Assembly: GCA_947649615.1 (NCBI GenBank)
Contig: CANSSG010000015.1
Location: forward strand, 1 to 63,397
Direction of reading: 5' to 3'
Length of the DNA stretch: 63,397 nucleotides
Source: an uncultured Clostridia bacterium
GTDB lineage: Bacteria > Bacillota > Clostridia > Oscillospirales > Oscillospiraceae
Below are positions 41,504 to 56,540 of the stretch, in pieces. A program made the position numbers and the translations under genes. The notes under the pieces were generated by a model. That model ran no database searches and was not told where the DNA came from. It worked only from the letters and a program-made list of their open reading frames with translations. Position 1 is the stretch's first letter, and every line of letters begins with the position of its first letter.

Positions 41504-42520
41504 ATCAAAATATTTACTTTTATTGTAACATGCTACCAGCAGTCAGACGTCGTGGTCATGGCGCTGGAAAGCGTTAAATATCAAATCAAGCATTACGGAC
41601 AGGGCCGCAAATTCCAGCTCATTGCCGCCGACGACGGTTCCACGGACGGCAGCAGGGAAGTTATCCAAAGGTGGACGGAACAAAACCAGGGCTTGTTTGA
41701 AAAAACCGACCTGCTGTTCCGGGAGGAAAACGGCGGCATCTGCCGCAATTATGTGGACGCGCTGCGGGCTGTGGAAGGGGAACAGTTTGTGAAGGTGGAC
41801 GGCGACGACCTGCTGGCGCCCTACAACGTGTTTGAACTGACGGAACTGCTTTCGGAATACGACATGGTCTGCCCTGCCTTTATCAAGTTTTCCGGCTCCG
41901 GAAATTTAGTTAAATCGTACCGTACTTATTTAGAGGTGGTGTTGCAGGCATTTATCAAGGGAAAGGCCCTGCATCGGGCGGTAAAGCTGGGCTGCCCGCT
42001 GTCAGGGACGGCCATATACCGGAAATCCCTCCTGACGGAGGAGGTCTATGATTTTATCCTGCGTTTCCGGACGGTCAATGACCGCGCCTGTTTCCAAAAA
42101 ATCATTACGGCAAACCCAGGAATCAAAACCTGTTATGTCAACCGGCCCATCATCTTGTACCGGGTATCCGGCACATCCATATCCCATTTTAACAGCGCCA
42201 GCCGGATATTGCATAATCAGGAAATCGGGCGTCTGTGCCGGGTTCAGCGGAAAGAGGAGCATTCCCCCCTGTTCCGGTTCCTGCTGCTGGCGCAGGAGAA
42301 AGCCGCCGCCTTCCGGGTAAGCCCCAGCAGATTTGTGCGGTTTTTTCGCTTTTTCTCCCCCTATTTTGTTATCATGCTGTGGCTGTATATCACACGCTTT
42401 TTTACCATCCGGCGCATGGAACGGGAACTGGTGGACCGGCATTGGCAGGACTGCGCCGCCCATTACCGGCGGATCGAGACGGCAACGGCGGATTTCCTGC
42501 GGCAAAGAAGGAATATGTAG
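41504..42520 (+). CDS. Family 2 glycosyltransferase without a canonical start codon
   Basis: A GT-A enzyme of about 337 residues with FTFIVTCYQQSDVV, ADDGSTDGS and KVDGDD, plus a C-terminal hydrophobic segment (FVIMLWLYITRF). Homologues begin with Met-Lys-Ile-Phe; here a strong GGGGGAGG site (41494-41501) is followed in frame by ATC (41504) or ATA (41510). The first normal codons, GTG 41552 and ATG 41558, would remove the first strand of the fold. An in-frame ATG at 41330 lies inside the divergent gene, upstream of the promoter. A rare start codon, a recent start mutation or a base error are all possible. Confidence 0.72.
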   Translation: MKIFTFIVTCYQQSDVVVMALESVKYQIKHYGQGRKFQLIAADDGSTDGSREVIQRWTEQNQGLFEKTDLLFREENGGICRNYVDALRAVEGEQFVKVDGDDLLAPYNVFELTELLSEYDMVCPAFIKFSGSGNLVKSYRTYLEVVLQAFIKGKALHRAVKLGCPLSGTAIYRKSLLTEEVYDFILRFRTVNDRACFQKIITANPGIKTCYVNRPIILYRVSGTSISHFNSASRILHNQEIGRLCRVQRKEEHSPLFRFLLLAQEKAAAFRVSPSRFVRFFRFFSPYFVIMLWLYITRFFTIRRMERELVDRHWQDCAAHYRRIETATADFLRQRRNM

Positions 42521-42546
42521 AAAATCTGTCCCCAATAGTGTATAAT
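42518..42546 (+). promoter_or_regulatory. Promoter of the tyrosine recombinase gene
   Basis: TAGAAA, 17 bp, TATAAT. The -10 is perfect, the -35 weak. It begins inside the last codons of the upstream glycosyltransferase gene. Confidence 0.55.
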
Positions 42547-42559: not shown

Positions 42560-42578
42560 AACAAGGAGGACTATGTAC

Positions 42579-43427
42579 ATGAGAGTACGGGAACTGACTG
42601 CCGGAAAAATTGCAGCCTACGCCAAGAGCCTGCGGGCGGAAGACCGGGCCGCAGCCACGGTTGAGAAGTACCGCCGGGATATCGCCGCCTTTGCCGGGTG
42701 GCTGGCGGAACGGGCGGTAACCAAGGAGTTGGCAGCCCAGTGGAAAAATCATCTGTTGGCGGAGGGGCTGTCCCCCGCGACGGTCAATGCAAAAATATCC
42801 GCCCTCAACGGACTTTTCAGCTTTTTGGGCTGGCGGGAATGCCGTATCAAGTTTTTGCGAATCCAACGCCAGCTGTTCCGGGAAAAGTCCCGCGAGCTGA
42901 CCCGCCGGGAGTACGAACGGTTAGTGGAGACAGCCCGCAAGCTGGGCCGGGTCCGGCTGGAACTTTTGATGGAAACCATCTGCTCTACAGGCATCCGGGT
43001 CAGCGAAGTGCGCTACATTACCGTGGAAGCCGCCAGGGATGGACAGGCGGTCATCCGGCTAAAAGGGAAAATCAGAACCATCCTCCTCCCCCGCAAGCTG
43101 TGCATTAAGCTGCTTAAATATGCTCGAAAAACAAAAACCGCCACTGGCGAGATTTTTCTCACCAAAAGCGGTAACAGCCTGTCGCGTAAGCAAATCTGGC
43201 AGGAGATGAAAGCCCTGTGCGTCCGGGCCGGGGTAGAGCCGTCCAAGGTGTTCCCCCACAATCTGCGGCATCTCTTTGCCACCGTCTTCTACCAGGTCAG
43301 CCGGGACTTGGTAAAGCTGGCGGATACGCTGGGCCATTCGTCTGTGGAAACAACGAGGATATATCTGATGACCAGCGTGTCGGAACATGCAAAATATTTG
43401 GAGAAATTGCGATTGGTCCAATTATAG
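42579..43427 (+). CDS. Tyrosine recombinase, likely invertase of the adjacent promoter segment
   Basis: A 282-residue XerC/D-like recombinase with an N-terminal SAM-like core-binding domain (1-95) and a complete catalytic set: Arg140 (STGIRVSE), Lys164 region (RLKGK), His227 and Arg230 (PHNLRH), His253 (LGHS) and Tyr262 (TTRIYL). I prefer the ATG at 42579, 9 nt after AGGAGG; the ATG at 42573 is only 3 nt from it. The stop codon lies inside the left arm of a 27-bp inverted repeat, and the inverted arm restores the same TATAGAC, so inversion would not alter the protein. Position and repeats suggest it flips 43423-43732. Confidence 0.93.
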   Translation: MRVRELTAGKIAAYAKSLRAEDRAAATVEKYRRDIAAFAGWLAERAVTKELAAQWKNHLLAEGLSPATVNAKISALNGLFSFLGWRECRIKFLRIQRQLFREKSRELTRREYERLVETARKLGRVRLELLMETICSTGIRVSEVRYITVEAARDGQAVIRLKGKIRTILLPRKLCIKLLKYARKTKTATGEIFLTKSGNSLSRKQIWQEMKALCVRAGVEPSKVFPHNLRHLFATVFYQVSRDLVKLADTLGHSSVETTRIYLMTSVSEHAKYLEKLRLVQL

Positions 43428-43449
43428 ACAGAATATGTGATTTGCCAAC
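43423..43449 (+). repeat. Left inverted repeat of the invertible segment (IRL)
   Basis: A 27-bp sequence starting TATAGACAG and ending TTTGCCAAC, matched perfectly in inverted orientation at 43706-43732. It overlaps the last bases of the recombinase gene. Confidence 0.93.
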
Positions 43450-43468
43450 TATTGATTTTTTCACGCTT

Positions 43469-43497
43469 ATTATATATGTGGCCTTTCAAAAATGCAA
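43469..43497 (-). promoter_or_regulatory. Invertible promoter, now facing away from the pel operon
   Basis: TTGCAT, 17 bp, TATAAT on the minus strand, with the same hexamers and spacing as the SRP RNA promoter at 4396-4424. At present the transcript would leave through the left repeat and run antisense into the recombinase gene. Confidence 0.75.
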
Positions 43498-43507
43498 TAG
43501 GCAATTT

Positions 43508-43525
43508 GACAGAATATGTGATTTG
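43508..43525 (+). repeat. Third, partial copy of the recombination repeat
   Basis: GACAGAATATGTGATTTG is identical to the central 18 bp of the left repeat and in the same direction. It may mark the real recombinase binding core. It also creates a TTGACA at 43506-43511, but the -10 at the right distance (CAGGAT) is poor. Confidence 0.8.
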
Positions 43526-43593
43526 TGGCAGGATGAAAAAGCCGCCTGTCTGTCGAAACAGCCGTTAAGCAATATGAGATGGCAGGATTAAGG

Positions 43594-43631
43594 AGAGCCG
43601 CGGGAAAATGTCCCTTAACGGCTCTATTTTT
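43594..43631 (+). terminator. Directional terminator inside the invertible segment
   Basis: AGAGCCG (43594-43600) pairs with CGGCTCT (43619-43625), inner GGGA with TCCC, followed by ATTTTTG. A second possible pairing, AGCCGTTAAG (43560-43569) with CTTAACGGCT (43614-43623), shares the right arm. Read from the other strand there is no T-run, so inversion would remove terminator function. Confidence 0.75.
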
Positions 43632-43705
43632 GTACGCCTGCACATCTCCAGAAAGACCACCAATTATGTTTCCAATGGATTTGCATGATTAATCAAAGCG
43701 GAACT

Positions 43706-43732
43706 GTTGGCAAATCACATATTCTGTCTATA
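43706..43732 (-). repeat. Right inverted repeat of the invertible segment (IRR)
   Basis: Perfect 27-bp inverted match to 43423-43449. The match ends exactly at both borders: the next bases on each side differ. Confidence 0.93.
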
Positions 43733-43809
43733 CATGAAAACCGGCAAAAAGAATCCCATACAGGCGTTGGCTGGGTCCGCTTCCATGTTTAGAACAGGCT
43801 TCATAAATG

Positions 43810-43829
43810 TGCCGGCTGCTTCGCCGGCA
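43810..43829 (+). promoter_or_regulatory. Leader hairpin before the PelD-like gene
   Basis: TGCCGGC and GCCGGCA pair over a 6-nt loop, 14 bp before the ATG and next to the AGGGG ribosome site. It may influence translation of the operon. Confidence 0.4.
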
Positions 43830-43843
43830 GGAAAGCAGGGGAT

Positions 43844-46021
43844 ATGGAGATTTTATTGATTGGGACCGGTCAGTTGGCGGAGGCTCTCATCGATCGATTC
43901 AACAAAAATGGGGAAAGAGTCTATCTGCTTACCGGCCAGAGAGAGCCGCTGCCTTTCCGGCAGCATGTTTTTGAAAAATATAATTTCGCCTATGACGACG
44001 AGAGCGTAAAGGACATCTTTGACAGCATTAAGCCAGACATTACTATCTTTACCGGCGCATGGGACAGCCATTTTGACTGGGAGAAGGCGCGGCAGGAGTC
44101 CGTTCGGTACACAGCAGCCCTGATTAACATCCTCACCGCCTACACCATGCGGGGCAGCGGCCGCTTTGTGTACCTGTCCTCCCAGGAGGTGTTTACCGGC
44201 TCCTTCCCCAACAATCTGCCGGAAACCTGGAATACGAATCCGAAGGGCCTGCGCAGTATGGCGATTGCCCAGGGAGAGGATATCTGCGCCAACTACTGCC
44301 AGAACCAAGGCCTGGATATACGCACCCTGCGCCTGGATCATCTCTACTGCATTCCCAAAAGGGGGCGGCCGGGCCTGGACCCCTGCTGCGCCATGTGCCT
44401 GGAGGCACTCAGAAGCGGTAAGATATTTGCCAGCGACCGCGATGTGTTCTCCATGCTGTTTGTCAAGGACGCGGCGGAACTGGCCTGCAAGGCCATTACC
44501 GCGCCAAAGCTGGAACGGCCGGTATACCATATTTCCTCTATGGAGGAAATCAACGGCTTGCAGCTTGCCCGGATGGTTCAGGAGTCTATGGGCAGCGGCG
44601 TCGAGGTAATCGACGAATCCGTAGGCGAACACCGCCGGGTCGTCCTGGACGGCGCCGCCTTTTCCAACGAACTGGGGCAGAAGATTTTTACCCGATATCC
44701 GGAAGGCGTCAAACAGGTTGCCCAGTTCATGAAGCGGAACCGGGAGTCCTTCATTCGCGCGGAGGACGCCGGTGGAAGCCGTCTGGCCCGGTTCCTGCAC
44801 AGGACCCGGGTCCTTATTGCCGCTCTGGTGCCTTATGTGGAGAACGTAATCTGCGGTTTTATTTTTTTCTTTCTGAACAAATATACTGCTGGCAACGGCT
44901 TTTTTGACCGGGTGGACCTGTTTTTGCTATACGTGCTGCTGTTTGCCGTGGCGTTGGGCCAGCGGCAGGCGGTGCTCTCGGGCCTTCTGGCCTCCTTTGG
45001 CTACTGCCTCCAGCAGATGCACACCCGCAGCGGCTTCGCGGTGCTGCTGGACTACAACACCTATGTGTGGATGGCGCAGTTATTCATCGTAGGCATGGTG
45101 GTGGGCTACATAAAAGATCAGCTCCACACCGTAAAGCGGGAGAGCCGGGATCAGATTGCCTATCTGGAAGGGCGGCTCAACGACATCGCGGAAATCAACG
45201 ACAGTAATGTGCGGATGAAGGAAAACTTCGAGATTCAATTGGTGAATCAGAAGGACAGCCTGGGAAAGATTTACGACATCACCTCCACCCTGGAACGGCA
45301 GGCTCCGGAAGAAGTGCTTTTTACCGCCGTACGGGTCCTCTCCCATCTGATGGACTGCGGCGGCGCAGCAATCTACACCGTGGCAAACCGCAGCTACGCC
45401 CGCCTTTTTTCCTCCACCTCCAAGGAGGCAAGAAGCCTTGGGCACTCAATTGAATACACTGCTATGACGGAGATGTATAGCGAGCTGAAAGAGCGGCGGG
45501 TCTTCATCAACAAGTCCATGCGGGAAAACCTGCCCCTGATGGCCAGCGCCGTGTATAGCGAGGACGGCATGGAGTTGATTTTCATGCTATGGGGCATTCC
45601 CTGGCAGCGCATGACCATGGCGGAGGCCAACCGGCTGGCCGTAATCGGTCAAATGGTCCAGACCGCCGTCGTGCGGGCTAACCAATATCTGGACGCCCTC
45701 AGCAGCCAACGGTATGTGGAAGGCACCCGGCTGATGGCCGGGAACGCGTTCCGCCAGCTTGCAAAAGCTTTCCTAGGCGCCAGAGACCAGGGCTTGACGG
45801 AATGCGCCCTGCTGGAGGTCCCGGTGCAGAACGGGGACTGTGCTGCCGCTGCGTCCGCCCTCGGCAGAAACACCCGGCAGTCGGACTATATGGGCTATGC
45901 CCGGGATGGCGTACTGTACGTGCTCCTCTCCAACACCAGCAGCGAAAATGCCGGGATCATCCAAGAACGGTTCCTGGCGGCGGGGTACGAAAGCCGCCTG
46001 ATTGAGGAGGCGTCGCTGTGA
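43844..46021 (+). CDS. pelD: PelD-like c-di-GMP receptor fused to a degenerate NAD epimerase domain
   Basis: A 725-residue protein. Residues 1-310: epimerase-like Rossmann domain with GTGQLAEAL at the N-terminus; where the family has YxxxK it reads RSMAI (about 137-141), so catalysis is unlikely. 330-430: four membrane helices. 435-480: coiled coil. 470-600: GAF domain. 630-725: degenerate GGDEF domain ending in RQSD (678-681), five residues, then RDGVLYVLL in place of GGDEF. RQSD fits the RxxD I-site by which PelD binds c-di-GMP. Membrane helices, GAF and pseudo-GGDEF in this order match PelD. First gene of the pel-type operon. Confidence 0.82.
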   Translation: MEILLIGTGQLAEALIDRFNKNGERVYLLTGQREPLPFRQHVFEKYNFAYDDESVKDIFDSIKPDITIFTGAWDSHFDWEKARQESVRYTAALINILTAYTMRGSGRFVYLSSQEVFTGSFPNNLPETWNTNPKGLRSMAIAQGEDICANYCQNQGLDIRTLRLDHLYCIPKRGRPGLDPCCAMCLEALRSGKIFASDRDVFSMLFVKDAAELACKAITAPKLERPVYHISSMEEINGLQLARMVQESMGSGVEVIDESVGEHRRVVLDGAAFSNELGQKIFTRYPEGVKQVAQFMKRNRESFIRAEDAGGSRLARFLHRTRVLIAALVPYVENVICGFIFFFLNKYTAGNGFFDRVDLFLLYVLLFAVALGQRQAVLSGLLASFGYCLQQMHTRSGFAVLLDYNTYVWMAQLFIVGMVVGYIKDQLHTVKRESRDQIAYLEGRLNDIAEINDSNVRMKENFEIQLVNQKDSLGKIYDITSTLERQAPEEVLFTAVRVLSHLMDCGGAAIYTVANRSYARLFSSTSKEARSLGHSIEYTAMTEMYSELKERRVFINKSMRENLPLMASAVYSEDGMELIFMLWGIPWQRMTMAEANRLAVIGQMVQTAVVRANQYLDALSSQRYVEGTRLMAGNAFRQLAKAFLGARDQGLTECALLEVPVQNGDCAAAASALGRNTRQSDYMGYARDGVLYVLLSNTSSENAGIIQERFLAAGYESRLIEEASL

Positions 46022-46980
46022 GCGGAATGCTGAGTTGGCGGGGTTTTATCGTCCTGTGGATATTGAACCTGCTGACGGCGGTAATTTACCTGGCCGTGGG
46101 CGCGTTGGTGATATCCCCGCTAAGGACCAGAAAGGAGCGGAAGGCTGGGGCAGAGGTGTGCCATGACAACCGGCGGACCTACCTGCTGCGGTTTTTGGTT
46201 ATGGCGCTCTGCCCTGTGGTGGGTCCGCTGTTCTTCCTCTTTTCTTACATACTCTTTCGGATGCCGCTGTGGATGCAGCCCAGCCTGTCGGACGTGGTGT
46301 TCAGCAAGGAGCGGGTCAAAACCTACCTGAAAGCCGATGAAGAGCGGGAGCGGGACATGATCCCCCTGGAAGAAGCCCTATTCATTAACAAAAGCAAAGA
46401 CCTGCGCCTGGTGATGATGAACACCATCCGCGGGGACGTCCACGCCGCCCTGGGCGTGATCCTGCTGGCATTAAACAGCGAGGATTCCGAAACTGCCCAC
46501 TACGCCGCCTCCGTCCTCAGCGGGGAGTTGGACGATTTCCGAACCAAAGTCCGGCAGCTGCGCCGGTCTATCGCCGGAGAGGAGGATGGGGAAACCGGTG
46601 CAGAACTGGAGCTTCTCCCCTACATGGACGGCTTTCTCAAGCAGCGGGTATTTTCAGAACTGGAGCAGAAAAAAATGGTGGGCATTATGGCTGGGGCGGC
46701 CCAGTCCCTCTTTGACAAGGACCCCTGCCAGCTTACGGAAGCCCACTATGAGAGCATATGCCTGCGGCTGTTGGAGACGGAGAATTTTGCGGAATCGGAA
46801 ACGTGGTGCGCCCGGCTGTCCGCCCAGTATTCGGACTCCCTCCCTTCTTATACATGCAGGCTGAAGCTGTACTTTTCTACTAAAAACCGGGAAGCCTTTT
46901 TTGACACGATGGCCGCGCTGAAGCGCTCGGCGGTCGTGATTGACAATGAGACGCTGGAACTGATCAAGGTATTCGGTTAG
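46018..46980 (+). CDS. PelE-like membrane protein with TPR-type domain
   Basis: A 320-residue protein with two N-terminal membrane helices (about 8-30 and 57-78) and a long helical cytoplasmic part (YAASVLSGELDDFRTKVRQL, YESICLRLLETENFAESETWC) that would suit TPR-like repeats. This is the PelE layout, and the position between PelD- and PelA/F-like genes supports it. GTG start at 46018, overlapping the previous stop, with GAGGAGG 7 nt upstream. PelE is thought to join the c-di-GMP receptor to the synthase. Confidence 0.75.
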   Translation: MSGMLSWRGFIVLWILNLLTAVIYLAVGALVISPLRTRKERKAGAEVCHDNRRTYLLRFLVMALCPVVGPLFFLFSYILFRMPLWMQPSLSDVVFSKERVKTYLKADEERERDMIPLEEALFINKSKDLRLVMMNTIRGDVHAALGVILLALNSEDSETAHYAASVLSGELDDFRTKVRQLRRSIAGEEDGETGAELELLPYMDGFLKQRVFSELEQKKMVGIMAGAAQSLFDKDPCQLTEAHYESICLRLLETENFAESETWCARLSAQYSDSLPSYTCRLKLYFSTKNREAFFDTMAALKRSAVVIDNETLELIKVFG

Positions 46981-47019
46981 GGCCTGTTTGATACATGGCG
47001 GAACGTCCAAGGGTAGATG

Positions 47020-47062
47020 CTTTTCCGCCGTCCGGCGGAAAAGAGCGCCCTTTGGGCGTTTT
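47020..47062 (+). terminator. Tandem hairpins between the PelE- and PelA-like genes
   Basis: First a perfect 10-bp stem (47020-47029 with 47034-47043), then CGCCC/GGGCG over TTT (47046-47058) followed by TTTTG. The second looks like an intrinsic terminator inside the operon and may reduce expression of the downstream genes. Confidence 0.6.
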
Positions 47063-47105
47063 GCAAATATGCCCTGAGCGTACACGATGCGATGGGAGGA
47101 CGCAG

Positions 47106-48923
47106 ATGATATCGCGCCGCAACTATTTATCTATTGCAGCGATTATGCTGGTGGTTCTGTTCATGTTTCAGTTTACCAACGTAACGCTGGAAATGTGGAA
47201 TGACTACGAAAGAAATGAGAACGCCGTGGATATATCGGAACTGACGGCCAGGAGCAGCGTCTTCGCGGCGGAGGATGGGGCGGCTTTAGACGCCGCCCGG
47301 CCCGCTGCGGCCTACATCGGCGGCGGGGGCGCTATCGGCCGGATGGCGGCCGATTGGGCCGCTTATACAAAGCGGGGGTTCGTCTCCAGCGCCCGTCTGG
47401 CAGATTTTGAGCCAGGGACGAACCTGCCTGAATTGATGATTGTGGATGGCGCCGGAATGGACTGGGACGCCGGAATGGTCCAATCTCTGGAAAATTACGC
47501 CGGCAGAGGGGTTCACCTGGTATTCGCCAGCCTGCCGGACGCGTCCGTGATCCAGAAAACGCCGGAACTGCGGGATCTGCTGGGCATCTACAAGGTGCGC
47601 GCCCAACGCACCAAAACACAGGGGATTCACCTCTACGGCGGCTTTCTGCTTGGCGGGGCATGCATCTATCAGGTGGAAGAACCGAAGGATGAGGAACGCC
47701 AGGATATGGAACTGGAAATGCCCTGGTACATCCTGGACGCGGGCACAAAGGCATATATGAAAGGGATTCCCCCAGGAGAGGAGAAGGTAGAGGACTACCC
47801 GGCGGTTATTTGGCGGCGGAGCCTGGAGAACGCCTACGTCTTCGCGGTAAACGGCGGCTATATGGAAGACGCCACGGGGCTGGGCATCCTCTCCGCCATG
47901 GTTTCGGAAACCACTAGCTGCACGGTCTACCCGGTGGTGAACGCCCAAAGCCTGGTGCTGGCCAACTATCCCTGTTTGGCCGCAGAAAACGGCGCCGTGC
48001 TGGACCGGTACTACAGCCGCTCTATGCAGGGGTTGTACCGGGACGTTTTGTGGCCTGACCTCACCGCCGTCTACCATCGAGGCAATCTGGGGCTGTCCTG
48101 CATGATGTCCGTCCAGTTTGACTATAGCGACGCCCGCCATCCCAGCCAGGGCCAGTTCGTCTATTATATGAAGCTGCTCAACGAACTGGACGCGGAGCCG
48201 GGGCTGTCCCTGTATAGCGTTTCGGATACGCCGGCAACGGAGCGGCTGGCGGCGGATTTCAACTTTATGCGGCAGGCGCAGCTAGAATACAAATTTACTT
48301 CCCTTTACGGCGGCGGGTTAGATGAAAAGGACTTGAACGACGCGTTGGGCTGGGGCGACCTGGCAAACGTGCGCACGGTGGTCTTCCCCTATGACGGCGG
48401 CAGCAGCGTACTGGGCTACCAGACGGAACAGGTGACCCGGCAGACCGCCATCGCCGACGGCTTTGCCCATACTTACCGGAGCGACCTGCGGATGCGGAGC
48501 GTGGAAACAGCCCTCGCCTATACCAGCGTCCTGGTCGACGCCGCCAGGGCGGTATATCCTGACAGCAAAAACGACACCTGGGACGTGTTATCCCAGCGGC
48601 TTACCGCAGACGTCCCAAGCAGTTGGGATAACTTCGAGGTTTTTGACCCTGCTACAGTTTCCCAATGCGATGGGCGCATTCGGGACTTCCTCGCTATGGA
48701 TTATACCTACAGCCGCGAGGGAAACCTGGTCTCCATCCAACATACCGGCAGCGGTACGGCGTGGTTTCTCCTTCGCGCCCCCGGCGAGACGGTGGAATCT
48801 GTGGAGGGAGGCAGCGTCCGCGAGATGGAGGAAGGCGTATACCTCCTGGAGACCGGCGCAGGCCAGGTGGAGGTTGTCCTGCGTCCGGCGCTTCCGGAAT
48901 GGCGGGCCGCCGGAAACGAATGA
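47106..48923 (+). CDS. PelA-like DUF2194 family protein, membrane-anchored
   Basis: A 605-residue protein with one N-terminal membrane helix (about 9-25) and a large extracytoplasmic part. The middle (SCMMSVQFDYSDARHPSQGQ near residue 335) resembles the polysaccharide deacetylase-like fold of DUF2194, which in Gram-positive Pel loci takes the place of the PelA deacetylase. I cannot find the usual His-x-x-x-His metal motif, so activity is uncertain. The C-terminus (about 510-605) looks like a beta-sandwich. ATG at 47106 with GGGAGG 6 nt before; a longer reading from 46995 covers the hairpins and is rejected. Confidence 0.72.
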   Translation: MISRRNYLSIAAIMLVVLFMFQFTNVTLEMWNDYERNENAVDISELTARSSVFAAEDGAALDAARPAAAYIGGGGAIGRMAADWAAYTKRGFVSSARLADFEPGTNLPELMIVDGAGMDWDAGMVQSLENYAGRGVHLVFASLPDASVIQKTPELRDLLGIYKVRAQRTKTQGIHLYGGFLLGGACIYQVEEPKDEERQDMELEMPWYILDAGTKAYMKGIPPGEEKVEDYPAVIWRRSLENAYVFAVNGGYMEDATGLGILSAMVSETTSCTVYPVVNAQSLVLANYPCLAAENGAVLDRYYSRSMQGLYRDVLWPDLTAVYHRGNLGLSCMMSVQFDYSDARHPSQGQFVYYMKLLNELDAEPGLSLYSVSDTPATERLAADFNFMRQAQLEYKFTSLYGGGLDEKDLNDALGWGDLANVRTVVFPYDGGSSVLGYQTEQVTRQTAIADGFAHTYRSDLRMRSVETALAYTSVLVDAARAVYPDSKNDTWDVLSQRLTADVPSSWDNFEVFDPATVSQCDGRIRDFLAMDYTYSREGNLVSIQHTGSGTAWFLLRAPGETVESVEGGSVREMEEGVYLLETGAGQVEVVLRPALPEWRAAGNE

Positions 48924-48941
48924 CTGGAGGAGGTGGCGTGT

Positions 48942-50381
48942 ATGCGCATTTGTATGGTGGCAGAGGGATGCTATCCCTATGCCGTGGGCGGCGTTTCCAG
49001 TTGGGTCCACAGTATGATCCGCTCCTTTCCTGAGCATGAATTCGTCCTTCTGACCATTGTATCCAGCCGTGATATGCGCGGGAAATTCGCCTACACGCTG
49101 CCGGACAATGTGACGGAAGTCCACGAACTGTACTTGCAGGACAAGGATTGGAGCGGCCGCCGGAAAAACCGGATGAACCGTACGGAATTTAACGCCCTGC
49201 GCAGCCTGCTGCTGGACCAGCGGATCGACTGGGAGACCCTGATTGACTTTTTTCAGAAGAAACGCCCCTCCCTCAACGGCATATTAATGGGCGAGGACTT
49301 TTTCCATGTGGTGTCCGAGTTTTACCAACTCCATTACAGCCAAGTGGTATTTTCGGATTTCTTGTGGATGATGCGCTCCATCTACCTGCCCCTCTTCTTT
49401 ACGCTGGAAATGGAACTGCCAGAAGCGGACCTATACCACTGCCTATGCACCGGCTACGCCGGTGTGCTGGGCAGTATGGCCAAGCATTTGTACGGCAGCC
49501 CTCTCATGATTTCCGAACACGGCATCTACACCAGGGAGCGGGAGGAAGAATTGGTAAAGGCCAAGTGGGTGCAAGGCTTGTATAAGAACGTGTGGATCAG
49601 CCAATTCCGGAAGATGTCCCGCCTGGCCTATGAGCGGGCGGACCTGGTGACCAGCCTGTACGAGCATGCCCGCACCCTGCAAGTGGAACTGGACTGCCCG
49701 GAGCAGAAGACCCTGGTGACCCCCAACGGCATCCAGGTGGCGGACTTCCAAAATCTGCCGGGAAAGACGGAGGAGGATGAAGGCTGGATTAATGTGGGGG
49801 CCGTGCTGCGGGTCACTCCGATCAAGGATGTGAAGTCCCTTCTCCAAGCCTTCGCCTTTGCCAAGGAGCGGGAACCTGCGCTGAAGCTGTGGGTCATAGG
49901 GCCGTGGGAGGAGGATGTAGAGTATGCACAGGACTGCTTTGATCTGGTGGAGGATTTGCCGCTCCGGGATGTGGTTTTCACCGGCAGAGTTAACGTCAGG
50001 GAGTATCTCGGGCGAATGGACATGACCATCCTCACCAGCATCAGCGAGGGCCAGCCGTTGACCATCCTGGAGAGCTTTGCCGCCCATAAGCCCGCCATTG
50101 CCACGGATGTGGGAAACTGCCGCGGGCTGATTATGGGCGAGGGCGACGGCCTGGGCGCAGCGGGGCTAATTACCCATATCATGAACTTGGAGGAGATATC
50201 CCAGGCCATCCTCTATCTGGCCCACCACCCCGAGGAGCGCCGGAGGATGGGGGAAATCGGATACCGGCGCGTGTGCGCCCACTACCGTATTGACCAGATG
50301 CATGACGCCTATCAGCGCATTTACCGCGACTTCTCCGAGAAGGAGAGACGGAAGCCGGGACAGCCTGTTGCGGCGCATTAG
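48942..50381 (+). CDS. pelF: PelF-type glycosyltransferase (GT4)
   Basis: The 479-residue product begins MRICMVAEGCYPYAVGGVSSWVH, the PelF signature, and has the GT4 nucleotide-binding end with ExxxxxxxE in SEGQPLTILE near 372. PelF is the soluble synthase of Pel, thought to use UDP-N-acetylhexosamine. Also typical are SEHGIYTREREEEL near 192 and VTPNGI near 263. ATG at 48942 follows AGGAGG by 8 nt; a GTG at 48933 is less well placed. It lies 18 bp after the DUF2194 gene and 23 bp before pelG. Confidence 0.9.
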   Translation: MRICMVAEGCYPYAVGGVSSWVHSMIRSFPEHEFVLLTIVSSRDMRGKFAYTLPDNVTEVHELYLQDKDWSGRRKNRMNRTEFNALRSLLLDQRIDWETLIDFFQKKRPSLNGILMGEDFFHVVSEFYQLHYSQVVFSDFLWMMRSIYLPLFFTLEMELPEADLYHCLCTGYAGVLGSMAKHLYGSPLMISEHGIYTREREEELVKAKWVQGLYKNVWISQFRKMSRLAYERADLVTSLYEHARTLQVELDCPEQKTLVTPNGIQVADFQNLPGKTEEDEGWINVGAVLRVTPIKDVKSLLQAFAFAKEREPALKLWVIGPWEEDVEYAQDCFDLVEDLPLRDVVFTGRVNVREYLGRMDMTILTSISEGQPLTILESFAAHKPAIATDVGNCRGLIMGEGDGLGAAGLITHIMNLEEISQAILYLAHHPEERRRMGEIGYRRVCAHYRIDQMHDAYQRIYRDFSEKERRKPGQPVAAH

Positions 50382-50404: not shown

Positions 50405-51859
50405 ATGGCCGGCATCGGCGTAACGCTGAATAAATTTTTTGAAAAGAGGTCCCTGACGGCCGGTCTGGCGGGCGTTGCCTACGGCTCCTGCCTGACGGTG
50501 GCCCCCATGGTGCTGGTAATTGGGGTTTTGCTGCTGCTGGAATGGATTCTGGGGTTCGACACCTTGGATTACTATACCAGGGAGTTGTTCTCCTGTACCA
50601 TTTTGTACATTTTCATTTTCGCCCTGCTGACTGCGGCGCCCTTTAACTCGCTGCTCTCCAAGTACATGCAGGACGCCATCTTCGAGGAGCGTTACCAGGA
50701 CATTCTGCCTTGCTATTACCTCGGGCTGCTGATGAATGTGGCCCTGAGCTGCCTGCTGGGCGTTCCCTTCTGCCTGTGGGAGCATTTTGTGGGGAATGTG
50801 CCGGTGGCCTATGTGTTCACCGGCTTCTGCGGGTTTATTGCCCTGGTGCTGGTGTTCTATTCCCAGCTTTACCTCTCCATCTGCAAGGACTACGGCAGGA
50901 TATCCCTGTTTTATTTGCTGGGCCTTGCGGCCGCCTTCCTTCTGTCCCTGGCCCTCCGCTATTGGGCAGGGTGGGAAATCACGGAATGTATGCTGATGGG
51001 CTTTACGGTGGGCTTTTTCCTTACCGCTGTGTTGGAGTACGGCTCGGTGCGCCGGTATTTCGTGAAAAACAGCAACCGGTTCCGCCCGGTGCTGCGGTAC
51101 TTCCGGCTGTACTGGCATCTGGTGGTCATTAACTTCTTTTATACCTTGGGGCTGTATATTCACAACTTTGTTTTTTGGACGACGGATATGCGGATGGTGG
51201 TAGCCCGGTCCTTTGTCTGCGCCCAGCCCTACGACATGGCCTCCTGCCTGGCCATGTTTACCAATATTTCCGCCACAGTGATTTTTATCGCCCGGGTGGA
51301 GATGTACTTTCACAGCCGCTATAAGGCCTACTCCGAGGCGGTCATCGGCGGCAGGCTTTCGGACATCCGGAACAACAAGCGGGAGATGCTTCGGGAAATT
51401 TCCAACCAATTGATGGATTTAGCCCGCATCCAGTTTATCATCTCCGTCGTGGTATATCTGATTCTTGTGGTGGTGCTGCCCCGTTTCGGCTTCGCGGGGC
51501 TGGTCATGCGCATCTACCCCTGCCTGGCCGCGGGATACTTCATCCTGTTCCAGATGTACGCGGAAATCCTTTTTCTCTACTATTACAAAGACATGTGGGG
51601 CGCGGTGTTTACGGCGGTGGGCTTCTGCGCGGTCACATGCCTGGCCAGCATCGCGGCAACCACTCTGCCGGACATCTGGTACGGTATTGGCGTGGTGATA
51701 GGGTCCTTTGTGGGCTGGACTACCGGATACTTCCGGCTGCGCTGGGTAGAGCGGCACATGGACGCCCAGGTGTTCTGCCAGGGCAAGCTGATCGAACGAG
51801 GCGCCGGTATCCGCCCCTCGGGACAGGTGTACCAAAGGGCGCGTGAAGACGGACGCTGA
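50405..51859 (+). CDS. pelG: PelG-type polysaccharide exporter
   Basis: A 484-residue membrane protein with about 12 helices, the MOP-flippase-like partner of PelF. N-terminal GIGVTLNKFFEKRSLTAGLAGVAYG and APFNSLLSKYMQDAIFEERY near 80 are PelG hallmarks. It would pass the growing chain across the membrane, since Gram-positive bacteria need no outer-membrane PelB/C. ATG at 50405 with GGAGGAGG 8 nt upstream. Confidence 0.9.
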   Translation: MAGIGVTLNKFFEKRSLTAGLAGVAYGSCLTVAPMVLVIGVLLLLEWILGFDTLDYYTRELFSCTILYIFIFALLTAAPFNSLLSKYMQDAIFEERYQDILPCYYLGLLMNVALSCLLGVPFCLWEHFVGNVPVAYVFTGFCGFIALVLVFYSQLYLSICKDYGRISLFYLLGLAAAFLLSLALRYWAGWEITECMLMGFTVGFFLTAVLEYGSVRRYFVKNSNRFRPVLRYFRLYWHLVVINFFYTLGLYIHNFVFWTTDMRMVVARSFVCAQPYDMASCLAMFTNISATVIFIARVEMYFHSRYKAYSEAVIGGRLSDIRNNKREMLREISNQLMDLARIQFIISVVVYLILVVVLPRFGFAGLVMRIYPCLAAGYFILFQMYAEILFLYYYKDMWGAVFTAVGFCAVTCLASIAATTLPDIWYGIGVVIGSFVGWTTGYFRLRWVERHMDAQVFCQGKLIERGAGIRPSGQVYQRAREDGR

Positions 51860-51868
51860 GGAGGGCCT

Positions 51869-52261
51869 ATGGGTATCACAATTTTTATGCGGTGCGCCAT
51901 TGTGGGGATTGGCCTGCTCCTGGCGGGGATCAGCGTATGGTACTACGCCAAGAAAAAAATGACCTCGGATATGGCGGCTACCTGGTGCCTGCTGGGCGCG
52001 GCGGTCATGGCGGTGGGCGTTATACCTGCCTTTTCCCAATGGTTGGGGTTCATCTCCTTTGGGACGGGCGTGGCGCTGCTCTGCGTAGGCGCAGCGGTTC
52101 TGATGGGCGCTTTCCGCATCTGCCTGATGATTTCCCGGCTGGTGATACAAAACCAAGAACTGGCTATGACCGTGTCCCTCCTGCTGGCGGAGCAGCGGGA
52201 GGATCGGGAAGAAAACGCCGGAGGGAGCCGGGATCATGAAGAAAGTCTTGTTTGTCATTAA
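51869..52261 (+). CDS. Small membrane protein (DUF2304-like)
   Basis: A 130-residue protein with three hydrophobic segments (about 8-25, 34-52, 58-79) and a charged C-terminal tail after QNQELAMTVSLLLAEQ. The pattern resembles DUF2304 proteins, small membrane proteins commonly encoded beside Dpm-like GT2 enzymes such as the one two genes on. Its 3' end overlaps the GT4 gene by 26 bp. Role unknown. Confidence 0.7.
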   Translation: MGITIFMRCAIVGIGLLLAGISVWYYAKKKMTSDMAATWCLLGAAVMAVGVIPAFSQWLGFISFGTGVALLCVGAAVLMGAFRICLMISRLVIQNQELAMTVSLLLAEQREDREENAGGSRDHEESLVCH

Positions 52262-53432
52262 CACCCTGGGCGTCGGCGGGGCAGAACGCGCCTTGCTGGA
52301 GCTGCTGGAAGGCCTGGCCGGCGGGGCATATGACATTAATCTCTATCTGATGCTGGGCCGGGGGCAACTGATGGACCAGGTGCCAGAGGGCATACAGCTG
52401 CTCAATCCCAGCATAAACACCGGCTCCGTGCTGGATGGTCCCGGCCGGCGGGCCTTGGCGGGCATGGTGGCCGCCTGCTTTTTTCGGAATGGGAAATGGG
52501 CGGGCAAGCTGGCAAGCGTACTGTGCGCCTTGCCGCCTATGCTGCGCAGGCGGCGGATACAGCTTGACAAGCTGCTTTGGCGGGTGGTGTCCGATGGGAC
52601 CGTCCGGCTGGATACGCGCTATGACGTAGCGGTGGCCTGGCTGGAGGGTGGGGCTGCGTACTTTGTGGCAGACCATGTCCAGGCCGGCAAAAAGCTGGCT
52701 GTCGTCCATATTGACTATACGCAAAGCGGGTATACGCGGGCGCAGGACTGCGGCTGCTGGTCCGCGTTTCAGAAAATATTTGTTGTCTCCGAGGAAATCC
52801 GCAGCCCCTTTCTCCAGGTGCATCCGGAATGCCGGGACAGGGTTCATGTGCTGCCCAATATCGTGAATCAGGAAAAAATCCGCCGTCTGGCCCAGGAGCC
52901 AGGGGGCTTTTCCGATGGCTGGACTGGGCTGCGCCTCCTCAGCGTAGGGCGGCTTACCTACCAGAAGGCATTCGATACCGCCATCGAAGCCATGAAGCTT
53001 TTGAAGGACGCCGGATACAGCGTCCGGTGGTACGTGCTGGGCGAAGGAGAGCAGCGGGGGGCGTTGGAGAAAAAAATTGCCGCTCTGGGCCTGGAGGAGG
53101 ACTTCTTACTTCTGGGTACTGTGAAAAACCCATTCCCCTACTATGCCCAATCGGACGTATACGTCCACGCCACCCGCTATGAAGGATGGAGCATTGCCGT
53201 ACAGGAGGCGCAGACCCTAGGCTGCGCCATTGTGGTATCCGACACCAGCGGCAACCGCCGTCAGGTCGTCCACAACCGGGACGGCCTGCTGTGTACGCTG
53301 CGCCCGGAGGATATCGCCCGGACCATCGGGTGTTTGCTGAGCGATGAGGACCGGCGAAAACGCCTGGGGGAAGCGGCCAGAACTAAAAAGACCGCCGCCC
53401 GGGAGACGGTACGGGCGCTGCTGGAATTTTGA
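52236..53432 (+). CDS. Family 4 glycosyltransferase
   Basis: A 398-residue GT-B enzyme: FVINTLGVGGAERALLELL at the N-terminus, VLPNIVNQEK near 204, VGRLTYQKAFDTAIEA and ExxxxxxxE in YEGWSIAVQEAQ near 312. ATG at 52236 follows GGAGGGAG inside the end of the preceding gene. It probably adds a sugar to a lipid-linked intermediate of a glycan separate from, or attached to, the Pel-type polymer. Confidence 0.9.
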   Translation: MKKVLFVINTLGVGGAERALLELLEGLAGGAYDINLYLMLGRGQLMDQVPEGIQLLNPSINTGSVLDGPGRRALAGMVAACFFRNGKWAGKLASVLCALPPMLRRRRIQLDKLLWRVVSDGTVRLDTRYDVAVAWLEGGAAYFVADHVQAGKKLAVVHIDYTQSGYTRAQDCGCWSAFQKIFVVSEEIRSPFLQVHPECRDRVHVLPNIVNQEKIRRLAQEPGGFSDGWTGLRLLSVGRLTYQKAFDTAIEAMKLLKDAGYSVRWYVLGEGEQRGALEKKIAALGLEEDFLLLGTVKNPFPYYAQSDVYVHATRYEGWSIAVQEAQTLGCAIVVSDTSGNRRQVVHNRDGLLCTLRPEDIARTIGCLLSDEDRRKRLGEAARTKKTAARETVRALLEF

Positions 53433-53453
53433 TTGCCACAGGGAGAAAGAGAC

Positions 53454-54218
53454 ATGGAAAGAAAAGACCTGCTGATTATTATGCCCGCCCACAACGAGGA
53501 GGAGAATCTTCCCCGCCTGTTGGATCAGATGGATGCAGAGAAGGTTGGACAAATGGCGGACGTGCTTGTCATCAACGACGCTTCCGAGGACGGTACGGCA
53601 AATATTATTTCGGCGCGCGGGTACCGGATGATTTCCAACGTATTCTGCCTGGGCTATGGCGGCGCGATACAAGTGGGGTATAAATACGCGGTCCAAGAGG
53701 GCTATCAATACGTCATCCAAATTGATTCGGACGGCCAGCACGATGTAAGCAACATCCCTATCCTATATGAACGGCTGTTGCGCCAGGACGGGGCGGGGAA
53801 ACGTCCCGACATCGTCCTTGGCTCCCGGTATCTGGAGCACAGCAAAAGCTTTCCGCTGTCCCCGGCCAAGCGGTTGGCCCACCGGATGTTCCGCGTATTA
53901 ATCCGGCTCATGACGGGGCAGACCATTACCGATCCCACCACCGGCCTCCAGGGATTAAGCCGCCGGGCTTTTTCCTGCTATGCACAGTACAACAACTTCG
54001 ATGTAAAGTACCCGGACGCCAATATGCTCATGCAAATGCTGCTGTTAAATTACCGGGTAGTGGAAGTGCCCGCCCTCATGCACCCACGCACGGCGGGCAT
54101 CAGCATCCATTCCGGACTGAAGCCGCTGTGGTACATGATCCGTATGCTTTACAGCACCCTGGCAATCGCCCTTCGCATCAAGGGCTTGAAACTAGACGCC
54201 AGGAACCGAGCGTCGTGA
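53454..54218 (+). CDS. Dpm1/DPG-synthase-like family 2 glycosyltransferase
   Basis: A 254-residue GT2 enzyme: LLIIMPAHNEEENLPRLL, NDASEDGT and the IQIDSDGQHD metal motif near 92, with TDPTTGLQGLSRRAF near 160. Similar enzymes put a sugar on polyprenyl phosphate for later use by GT-C transferases, which fits the GT-C-like protein encoded next. It has no membrane helix of its own; the DUF2304-like protein two genes before may help. ATG at 53454, GGGAG 8 nt upstream. Confidence 0.88.
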   Translation: MERKDLLIIMPAHNEEENLPRLLDQMDAEKVGQMADVLVINDASEDGTANIISARGYRMISNVFCLGYGGAIQVGYKYAVQEGYQYVIQIDSDGQHDVSNIPILYERLLRQDGAGKRPDIVLGSRYLEHSKSFPLSPAKRLAHRMFRVLIRLMTGQTITDPTTGLQGLSRRAFSCYAQYNNFDVKYPDANMLMQMLLLNYRVVEVPALMHPRTAGISIHSGLKPLWYMIRMLYSTLAIALRIKGLKLDARNRAS

Positions 54219-54242
54219 CCGTCCTGGGAAGGAGGAATCCCT

Positions 54243-56540
54243 TTGGATATTTCCAATACCCCCTACTGGGTTTTTGAATTTCTGAAAGTCCTCTGCGGCT
54301 ATCTGCTGGTAGGATTTCTGTGGCCGCGGTTTGTGTTTGCCGGGCGCCTGCGCGGGAAATCCGTGATTTATCAGTTTAGCTTCTGCGTTTCGGTGCAGAT
54401 GGTTCTGATTAACACGGTGGTACTCGGCCTGGGGCTGCTCCATATTCTCAATGCCTGGACAGTCCGTACTGTTTTTTACGGCGTCCCTCTGGCGGTTTTA
54501 TACCGGAGACTTCATATAACGGAGGAGAAAGTGGAGGACGCGTTCCGCGTCATAACCTTCGCGCGCTCCAAACTGCTGCTGCGGCGTTTGGGCCGTGCCG
54601 CCGCCAGGCGGATGAAGCTGCTGTGGCGCGCCGTGCAGGCGCATCCGCTGGATTATTTGGCCCTGGGAATTGTCGTGGTGTACGCGCTGGTCTATTTCTC
54701 ATGGGGGGCCTTTCAAAACACTTCCTATGGTTATGGCGACCAGTATGTCCACCATGCTTGGATCCAAGGCCTGATACAGGGCGAAATATTTCTCGATGGC
54801 GTTTACCCGGCGGGAATGCACTGTATGCTGTATGCCATCCATACCCTGCTGGGCGTGAGCCTATACAATCTATTGCTCTTTTTCGGGTGCATACAATGCA
54901 TCCTTTTCCTTGCGGCGTCCTACTGCCTGCTCCGGGAGTTGTTCCATTGGCGGTTCACGCCTATCTTTGTTTTGGCTGGATTCGTCCTTCTTGAAGCAAA
55001 CGGCAGCTTACAAGGAATGTCCCGCCTGCAATGGACGCTTCCTCTGGAGTTTGCCCTTGCACCGCAAATGATTTGCCTGTTGTACCTGATTCGATATCTG
55101 CGGTATGGCGGGAAGAAGGTGGAAAAGGGGAAATTCGCCGGGTATATCGCAGGAGACGAGCTGCTTGTCTTTATGTTGGCACTGGCGGCTATGTTGGCAG
55201 CCCATTTCCACGCGGCCATGATGGCATTCCTTATGTGCCTGATGGTGGCGCTTTTTTACCTCAAAAGGACTTTTAGCAAGGAACGGTTTCTATCCCTGGT
55301 ATTGGCGGTCCTATGCGGCGCTTTCATTGCGCTTGCGCCCATGGCGGCCGCGCTGGCCTCAGGCATCCCTATGCAGGCATCTCTGAACTGGGCCTTGGGC
55401 ATCATTGGCGGCGAAACGGACACGGAGCGCCGGAGCAGCCAACTGGAAGAACTGAACGAAGAGTTGGCCAGGAACGAGACCGGTGTCTCCGGGGAAGTAG
55501 AAGCGCGTACGGCTTTTGCCGTCAAAGTGTTCCGCCGCGCCTACACAGGGATTCTTGATCCAAGCTGGGCTGTGCCGCTGCTGATTCTGATGGCGGTGGT
55601 CACCCTTGGCGGCGCGGCGCTGAAGCTGGCGATGCAGTTTCCGCCCTTCCGATGTTGTTGGTTTGTTCGAACAGGACTGACCCGGCTATGGCTGGATAAT
55701 TATTTCCTCCTGACCGGGCTTTCCTTTATAATGACCTTCCTATATATCCTTCCGTATGTAGGCCTCCCGGAATTGGTGGTCGCAGCACGGCTGGTTACAA
55801 CGATGCGGATGCTTTTTTTTGCAGCAGCGGCGATTCCCCTGGACTTCCTCTTCGCCCTCCTCTCGCTGAGACTGAAGAATCCCGCTTTAAACCTTCTTTC
55901 CGCTTTTTGCCTGACCCTAATCTGCCTTTGGGCCGTAATGGGTGAAAACTACCACCACTTCCTCTACTATGAACTGACCCGTTACCGGGCGGAGGTGGCG
56001 GTAATGAACCATATTATTCAAAATTATCCAAAGGATGAATTTACCGTTGTATCGCCTACGGACGGCTTGTACCACGTAATTGCGTATGGCAGGCATGAGG
56101 AATTGGTGGACTTCCTCCATAAAGCAGCAGACGGGAGATATTTCATTCCCACAGAGCATGTCTTCATCTTTATTGAGAAAAAGCCCCTTGTGTACGCGCA
56201 AAACCATATAGCCCAGGGACCCGCTTTCCTCGGCAGGCCGGACAACCGGGATCAGTATGTTCAATTTGGAAGGCCGTGGAGCGTTGCGCCAACAATTACT
56301 GCTACGGAGATATCCCCGGAAGCGGCTCGGGAGGACTTGGGCGAATATAACAAGCCGTTCGATTACTACCGCTATGACCGTACGGTGGTAGAATCCAAAG
56401 CATATGCCTGGTGCCAGCGGTTTGCGGAACTTTATCCCAGCGAGGTGGACATATACTATGAGGATGACAGCTTTGTCTGCTACTATTTCCGGCAGGAGCC
56501 TAACGCGCCCTATGATTTGGCTATCGGCTATGGGGAATAA
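54243..56540 (+). CDS. Large polytopic membrane protein, GT-C glycosyltransferase-like
   Basis: A 765-residue protein with at least 12 predicted membrane helices over residues 10-565 and a C-terminal extracytoplasmic domain (about 580-765). The first large outer loop contains YGYGDQYVHHAWIQGL near 158, an acidic-residue pattern like GT-C enzymes. It resembles the DUF6541-type family, but I cannot name it surely. TTG start at 54243 with AAGGAGG 7 nt before. Placed after a Dpm-like GT2, it may use polyprenyl-phosphate sugars. Confidence 0.75.
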   Translation: MDISNTPYWVFEFLKVLCGYLLVGFLWPRFVFAGRLRGKSVIYQFSFCVSVQMVLINTVVLGLGLLHILNAWTVRTVFYGVPLAVLYRRLHITEEKVEDAFRVITFARSKLLLRRLGRAAARRMKLLWRAVQAHPLDYLALGIVVVYALVYFSWGAFQNTSYGYGDQYVHHAWIQGLIQGEIFLDGVYPAGMHCMLYAIHTLLGVSLYNLLLFFGCIQCILFLAASYCLLRELFHWRFTPIFVLAGFVLLEANGSLQGMSRLQWTLPLEFALAPQMICLLYLIRYLRYGGKKVEKGKFAGYIAGDELLVFMLALAAMLAAHFHAAMMAFLMCLMVALFYLKRTFSKERFLSLVLAVLCGAFIALAPMAAALASGIPMQASLNWALGIIGGETDTERRSSQLEELNEELARNETGVSGEVEARTAFAVKVFRRAYTGILDPSWAVPLLILMAVVTLGGAALKLAMQFPPFRCCWFVRTGLTRLWLDNYFLLTGLSFIMTFLYILPYVGLPELVVAARLVTTMRMLFFAAAAIPLDFLFALLSLRLKNPALNLLSAFCLTLICLWAVMGENYHHFLYYELTRYRAEVAVMNHIIQNYPKDEFTVVSPTDGLYHVIAYGRHEELVDFLHKAADGRYFIPTEHVFIFIEKKPLVYAQNHIAQGPAFLGRPDNRDQYVQFGRPWSVAPTITATEISPEAAREDLGEYNKPFDYYRYDRTVVESKAYAWCQRFAELYPSEVDIYYEDDSFVCYYFRQEPNAPYDLAIGYGE

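Follow-up and report, generated by a model that had tools for sequence, protein, structure and literature searches.

Ahead of a Pel-type exopolysaccharide operon in an uncultured Clostridia bacterium of the Oscillospiraceae lies a tyrosine recombinase gene that runs into a 310-bp segment bounded by inverted repeats (43423-43732, arms included), which we interpret as a candidate invertible promoter. Positions refer to the window, the 63,397-nt stretch of DNA analysed here, which is the entire contig C15 (CANSSG010000015.1) of a 2.65-Mb assembly in 70 contigs (GCA_947649615.1). The recombinase, a XerD-type protein of 284 aa and the proposed invertase, is encoded on the plus strand by a complete open reading frame (ORF; 42573-43427), whose TAG stop codon (43425-43427) falls within the left arm, L (43423-43449, plus strand). 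The right arm, R (43706-43732, minus strand), lies 256 nt away and is complementary to L at 27 of 27 positions. Between them a TTGCAT-17-TATAAT promoter on the minus strand (43469-43497; -35 at 43497-43492, -10 at 43474-43469) faces away from the operon, with 3% of 300 shuffles scoring equally well (sequence scoring only). A first-pass annotation of this DNA had described the recombinase gene with its stop inside the repeat, the perfect inverted copy and the outward-pointing promoter, all of which stand, except that it began the gene at 42579, the second in-frame ATG, rather than at 42573.

Overlooked in that annotation were a third, exact copy of the 18-nt core, M, in the same orientation as L (43508-43525, plus strand; 81 nt from L), a leftward terminator-like site (43563-43540, minus strand; consensus scan, 15 of 200 shuffles as good) and, within the left arm, a promoter-like TTGGCA-16-TATAAT (43448-43421, minus strand; consensus scan). 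A 13-nt signature, AAATTGCCTATTG (43495-43507, minus strand), overlaps the -35 of the window promoter, and from the left arm up to the start of pelD (43844) the consensus scan listed no plus-strand promoter. The terminator previously described as facing the operon corresponds to a rightward terminator-like site (43594-43632, plus strand), a hairpin (43594-43625; -16.1 kcal/mol, 6 of 200 shuffles as good) followed by AUUUUUG with its U-run reaching 43632; support for it is modest, because it is missing from the list given by the consensus scan of the window and a longer stretch (43535-43640) folds no better than shuffles (43 of 200 as good). Upstream of the recombinase, a promoter-like TAGAAA-17-TATAAT (42518-42546, plus strand) is a consensus match only. 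Within three mismatches, the core occurs at four places in the assembly, namely L, M and R exactly and one place with three mismatches. We reject a chance repeat because the arms match at 27/27 positions and because no pair scoring at least 16 arose in 430 shuffled versions of the regions upstream of Pel, which peaked at 14, or in any of 212 control windows.

The window recombinase matches PF00589 (E 1.5e-24) and PF02899 (E 2.7e-11) above the Pfam cut-offs and has both a SAM-like N-terminal domain and a catalytic domain with R, K, HxxR, H/W and Y. Its closest solved structure is XerD (1a0p), with which the R, K, HxxR, H and Y positions align, residues that we take to be the catalytic ones. As it scores under the cut-offs of the XerC, XerD and XerA equivalog models, the protein is none of these three.

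Downstream and on the plus strand, the identification of the operon as Pel-type is upheld by the PelF glycosyltransferase (48933-50381; NF038011, 360.8 bits, cut-off 100) and the PelG exporter (50405-51859; PF16933, 475.7 bits, cut-off 29). The first gene, pelD-like (43844-46021), encodes an N-terminal epimerase/SDR domain and a C-terminal part with an RxxD motif that is invariant in 16 of 16 aligned sequences; a profile of these 16 C-terminal sequences weakly matches diguanylate cyclase (E 0.0035), and phmmer with a single PelD C-terminus returned no match among solved structures. It is followed by a probable PelE (46018-46980), assigned by position only and with no family match, and a probable PelA-type protein (DUF2194; 46995-48923), assigned by PF09960 (E 3.3e-17) and otherwise by position. 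Further genes in the same direction (51869-57933) encode DUF2304, two glycosyltransferases, a large protein without a family match and DUF4874/DUF4832. The assembly has four GGDEF matches. According to the main text of Whitfield et al. 2020 (PMC7112168), clostridial PelD carries an SDR domain and clostridial pel loci have a DUF4832 accessory gene, so that the Gram-positive pelDEADAFG operon treated there and the window have in common PelF/PelG, the SDR domain on PelD and the DUF4832 gene. They differ in control, which the abstract of that paper ascribes to cyclic dimeric guanosine monophosphate (c-di-GMP), whereas the window has a recombinase-flanked promoter segment; the terms 'recombinase', 'inversion' and 'phase vari' have zero occurrences in a word search of its main text, and likewise in the text of the Streptococcus intermedius Pel paper (PMC12345266).

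Recombinase cassettes and promoter orientation in relatives

Searched against 150 genomes of the family, the window recombinase gave matches at E ≤0.001 in 142, many of them to distant Xer-like proteins; near-full-length relatives with 38-66% identity were spread across many genera among the matches listed. Our cassette sample comprised the 58 rows in which the recombinase match extends to residue 270 or beyond (two places of one genome are duplicated, and a few matches are partial). In 46 of these 58, the recombinase match was accompanied by a repeat pair with arms 195-383 nt apart that began at -8 to +75 nt relative to the match end, and seven of the 12 rows without one lie on contigs ending within 145 nt of the match. 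Once the loci are oriented, the site pairs are positioned 3' of the recombinase. The half-sites resemble GACAAAAT, with a centre that differs across loci and agrees inside each locus; tyrosine recombination requires matching site centres. The candidate inverton of the window thus belongs to a cassette family that is common among bacterial relatives.

The same recombinase family adjoins unrelated targets, so cassettes move or are recruited. This fits an alternative in which the recombinase serves as the integrase of a small mobile element whose ends or attachment sites are the repeats, with no promoter switch involved. We consider this alternative highly improbable, since the two arms form an inverted pair 3' of the recombinase and so do not enclose it, and since the 195-383 nt between them hold a promoter at a near-fixed offset. 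As the arms do not surround the recombinase, repeats in the role of a mobile-element end are rejected.

Promoters were scored in 45 distinct cassettes (one duplicate dropped), each against 300 shuffles. The better promoter faced the recombinase in 21 cassettes and the far side in eight. Measured from the -10 end to the outer boundary of the arm through which the promoter exits, the median distance was 66 nt for recombinase-facing and 65 nt for far-facing promoters, and the distance lay at 30-80 nt in 27 of the 29 called cassettes, compared with 21% of best shuffle sites. Both exceptions come from Pel cassettes: L116, at 116 nt, and L085, at 13 nt with an arm-based site. Mirrored, near-fixed distances indicate one promoter position seen in two mirror orientations, and both promoter orientations exist across homologous cassettes.

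Several features of these cassettes lie outside the Pel question. Among ten nearby proteins scanned, chosen from 22, four were S-layer-homology proteins and four were DUF4379 proteins. The former are large and lie 0.2-3 kb past the cassettes (L046:6806-10660, L051:9884-13339, L054:5170-8307 and L056:4063-6687), suggesting that the recombinase family may phase-vary cell-surface proteins. The DUF4379 proteins (treble-clef, 4-5 repeats) begin about 60 nt or less past the switch (L046:10645-11808, L050:9836-10759, L059:1246-2361 and L060:14210-15253). A second recombinase-like gene lies downstream of some cassettes (L045:9624-10508, L052:9947-10819 and L057:9144-10001). The L045 protein, the one scanned, has the N-terminal SAM domain and lacks a catalytic-domain match, and several family matches of this kind end near residue 250; the gene is possibly a catalytically dead regulator under the switch. 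Contigs G087:C56, G070:C7 and G019:C151 end within 100 nt past their recombinases, and the end of G087:C56 is itself arm-like, a pattern that coexisting orientations in the sample would produce.

Candidate switches at other Pel loci

The window and 80 loci returned by our search gave 81 Pel loci, a list that may omit records of the window's own genome. The analysis covered the 52 whose PelD match extends almost to the PelD start and excluded loci without a PelD match and those in which it was partial (L118, L119, L124, L143, L150 and L152); 43 of the 52 have at least 1 kb upstream of pelD. A repeat pair (score ≥16, gap 120-1500, no more than 1.8 kb before pelD) preceded pelD in nine of these 43 loci versus none of 212 control windows from the same loci, the control windows being mostly coding. 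Four of the nine are window-type switches (the window, L085, L087 and L116), L097 has another site type (recombinase 47%), and L102, L108, L113 and L120 have sites of the form TCGCAGAG-N7-CTCTGCGA. Beyond the nine, L095 has this last site type with arms further out, and L086 also falls outside the count. In the recombinase tree the window, L085, Pseudoflavonifractor sp. 524-17 and L087 group together (support 99), L116 comes next (88) and L097 lies elsewhere. In a PelF tree of 43 rows, built by a quick method and with L086 and L095 labelled as switches, the switch types require at least seven changes and the starred branches force at least four changes of presence or absence. Pel switches thus seem to have arisen more than once in related gut bacteria.

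Closest to the window among the 80 returned loci is L085, from Lawsonibacter sp. ABMPRH_161_14 (Oscillospiraceae; PelF 89%, recombinase 90%). L086 belongs to Pseudoflavonifractor sp. 524-17, whose Pel contig ends in CAAAACACATATTCTGT; another contig of this strain, with a 79% identical recombinase, stops at the same base of the matching arm. The switch segment itself was not found in the contigs examined, and the promoter signature had no match on either the Pel or the recombinase contig, which fits a missing segment without proving it. We infer that the assembler may have halted at this base because both orientations were present in the culture.

All four two-armed window-type Pel cassettes have an additional core with the same orientation as the left arm and at 63-85 nt from it; an additional same-orientation core occurs in three of 42 other cassette rows (one row is a duplicate), and an inverted one in a further row. 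The centre of M matches the arms of its own locus fully in the window and L087 and partly in L116. In L116 the promoter lies beyond M, hence the order of elements is not conserved. Recombination between L and M would delete the window promoter, and between M and R it would flip the terminator-like sites only.

Within the genus, PelF scored above the cut-off in three of 25 genomes searched, namely that of the window, G122 and G171. G122 (L043/L088) has the same glycosyltransferase-pelD order as the window, without a recombinase there, and in its 413-bp gap a promoter read by eye as TTGTAA-16-TATAAT faces pelD. The 13-nt signature overlaps the -35 of this promoter and is equally placed in the window promoter on the opposite strand, which supports an OFF reading of the assembled window. 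Alignment of the gap to the window segment yields weak scores of 30-37, peaking immediately ahead of the pelD start, and the best arm remnant in G122 (12/18) is no better than chance. In the PelF tree G122 sits among switch-bearing relatives (support 89), so it may possibly have lost a switch. The signature also occurs with one mismatch in L085, facing away; in L087 it faces away with one mismatch and faces pelD with two. Two-mismatch copies far upstream in L098 and L127 have no evident meaning.

These relatives bear on whether the window holds a fossil, that is, a former inverton locked OFF, with pelD driven weakly by another promoter or silent. The window and its nearest relative L085 show one orientation only, and the sister G122 lost its switch or never had one. 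Yet the recombinase ORF is intact with its catalytic residues, the 27/27 arms and exact third core suggest ongoing use, and the contigs of 524-17 end at the arms; we regard a fossil as very unlikely.

In the Lachnospiraceae, a homologous segment upstream of Pel is inverted between two loci with colinear flanks, by another recombinase type. Between L095 (Schaedlerella arabinosiphila) and L113 (a Lachnospiraceae metagenome-assembled genome, MAG), the pelD side (80%) and the left arm (27 nt) align on the plus strand, and a 1.4-kb segment with a recombinase-like gene, 22-24% identical to that of the window, aligns on the minus strand (74%). Judged by score only, without shuffle comparison, a TTGAAA-17-TAATAT promoter faces pelD in L113, which also has a nearly as good leftward site, and faces away in L095; by the same score the promoter faces pelD in L120 and away in L102, and is unclear in L108. 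One S. arabinosiphila contig carries L095 and L120, and a single genome carries L102, L108 and L113; because all five share a site type, one recombinase may act on several Pel operons in a genome. Two side observations concern these loci. L095 and L120 share a similar short ORF-like stretch (coding ..LEKAEEILRNVY..) between the right arm and pelD, resembling one in L108. S. arabinosiphila also has a second family of inverted site pairs, CGCAGAT..ATCTGCGA, seen as two-mismatch matches (G177:C1:3169228-3169605 and 3202423-3204104), which possibly reflect another recombinase specificity.

A proposed phase-variable switch of Pel and its place among known systems

We put the probability that the window carries a phase-variable promoter switch (inverton) controlling the Pel operon at about 0.87. 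The recombinase (42573-43427) would synapse the 27-nt arms and invert the 310-bp segment. In the assembled orientation, the promoter would read leftward, antisense to the recombinase gene, and with no consensus promoter into pelD the operon would therefore be OFF. Inversion would switch the operon ON, with transcription starting about 150 nt before pelD; this distance, given in the first-pass annotation, is recovered by arithmetic from a transcription start near 43693 and the ATG at 43844. That annotation also held that inversion disables the terminator, which is too simple because the segment has one terminator-like site per direction, so that one replaces the other. Inversion would exchange the two sites and move the promoter downstream of both, and a terminator-like site would still shield the Pel operon from read-through of the recombinase gene. 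This would place Pel under two layers of control, a heritable transcriptional ON/OFF state and c-di-GMP predicted to act on PelD via RxxD. The earlier proposal of an invertible promoter with a dedicated recombinase, OFF in this assembly, gains from the conserved cassettes, the mirrored promoters and the signature promoter facing pelD in G122.

Several observations weigh against this interpretation. Among Pel loci, 34 of 43 are without such a repeat, and both recombinase and repeat are missing from G171, the remaining genome of the genus with Pel. No clear promoter call was obtained in 16 of the 45 cassettes, and none of the four two-armed window-type Pel switches has a clear internal promoter facing pelD alone: the window and L116 are OFF (with the L116 promoter outside the 30-80 nt range, at a distance of 116 nt to the arm edge), L087 has similar promoters in each direction, and the best rightward promoter site in L085 uses the arm itself. 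With its signature in both directions, L087 may be ON in both orientations. A plain two-state switch does not explain the third site, M. Finally, the right arm of the window and its flank form TTGGCA-16-TATACA toward pelD, such that weak transcription is possible in either orientation.

This last point leads to an alternative in which the arm promoter TTGGCA-16-TATAxx drives pelD, bound recombinase represses it and inversion matters little. The left arm is an 11/12 promoter match, the arm supplies the best rightward promoter of L085, and the third site adjoins the -35. We nevertheless regard such an orientation-independent promoter as very unlikely, given that the right-arm copy in the window has a poor -10 and that, family-wide, a promoter sits inside the segment at a near-fixed offset in both orientations.

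The phase-variable switch that we favour is of a kind already known. In Bacteroides, capsules are controlled by invertible promoters flipped by recombinases. Those switches and the window share an invertible promoter ahead of a polysaccharide operon, and differ in that Bacteroides is another phylum with other sites, whereas the window has a dedicated recombinase beside its own Pel operon. Recombinase-driven inversion in clostridia is represented by RecV of Clostridioides difficile (PMC9286219, PMC7446863), which in the matches listed acts upstream of motility or c-di-GMP genes and of no Pel operon, in contrast to the window. Nearest is inverton group 139 of Jin et al. 2025 (PMC11892184), with 33 invertons, 32 of them from Clostridia, tied to tyrosine recombinase group 35. 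According to the main text of that study, reads show flipping, orientation shifts with culture passage, and the arms of a read-supported inverton in Intestinimonas butyriciproducens are, by the printed coordinates, separated by 227 nt. Group 139 and the window-type cassettes have in common an adjacent tyrosine recombinase, a host in Clostridia and similar arm spacing, and judging from segment length and host class the window cassette family is probably group 139/group 35. Pel is not named in the main text of that study, where the sole word starting with 'pel' is 'pellets'. More broadly, none of the matches listed by our literature searches showed a Pel operon preceded by an invertible promoter, which does not establish its absence in print. 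What is new here is the Pel target, its recurrence and the third site.

Taken together, these loci lead us to a broader view, held tentatively and at somewhat less than even odds, in which Pel behaves in gut Clostridia like a phase-variable capsule, brought under inversion several times by different recombinases. Oscillospiraceae would have a Pel-dedicated three-site lineage and Lachnospiraceae a different one, and a further recombinase, acting in trans, possibly flips two or three Pel operons per genome independently (in S. arabinosiphila and a Lachnospiraceae MAG). With the third site the switch would gain an additional state: recombinase sitting on either side of the promoter could silence it locally, or recombination between the two direct sites could remove the promoter for good.

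As a biofilm matrix polymer Pel is widespread, and what is known of its control concerns mainly c-di-GMP and transcription factors. Candidate switches are available in the named strains Pseudoflavonifractor sp. 524-17 and Schaedlerella arabinosiphila DSM 106076. The switch proposed here supplies a target and a promoter logic for a large recombinase family of gut Clostridia and, if true, a heritable DNA switch would provide single-cell bet-hedging of Pel in gut commensals, above c-di-GMP control.

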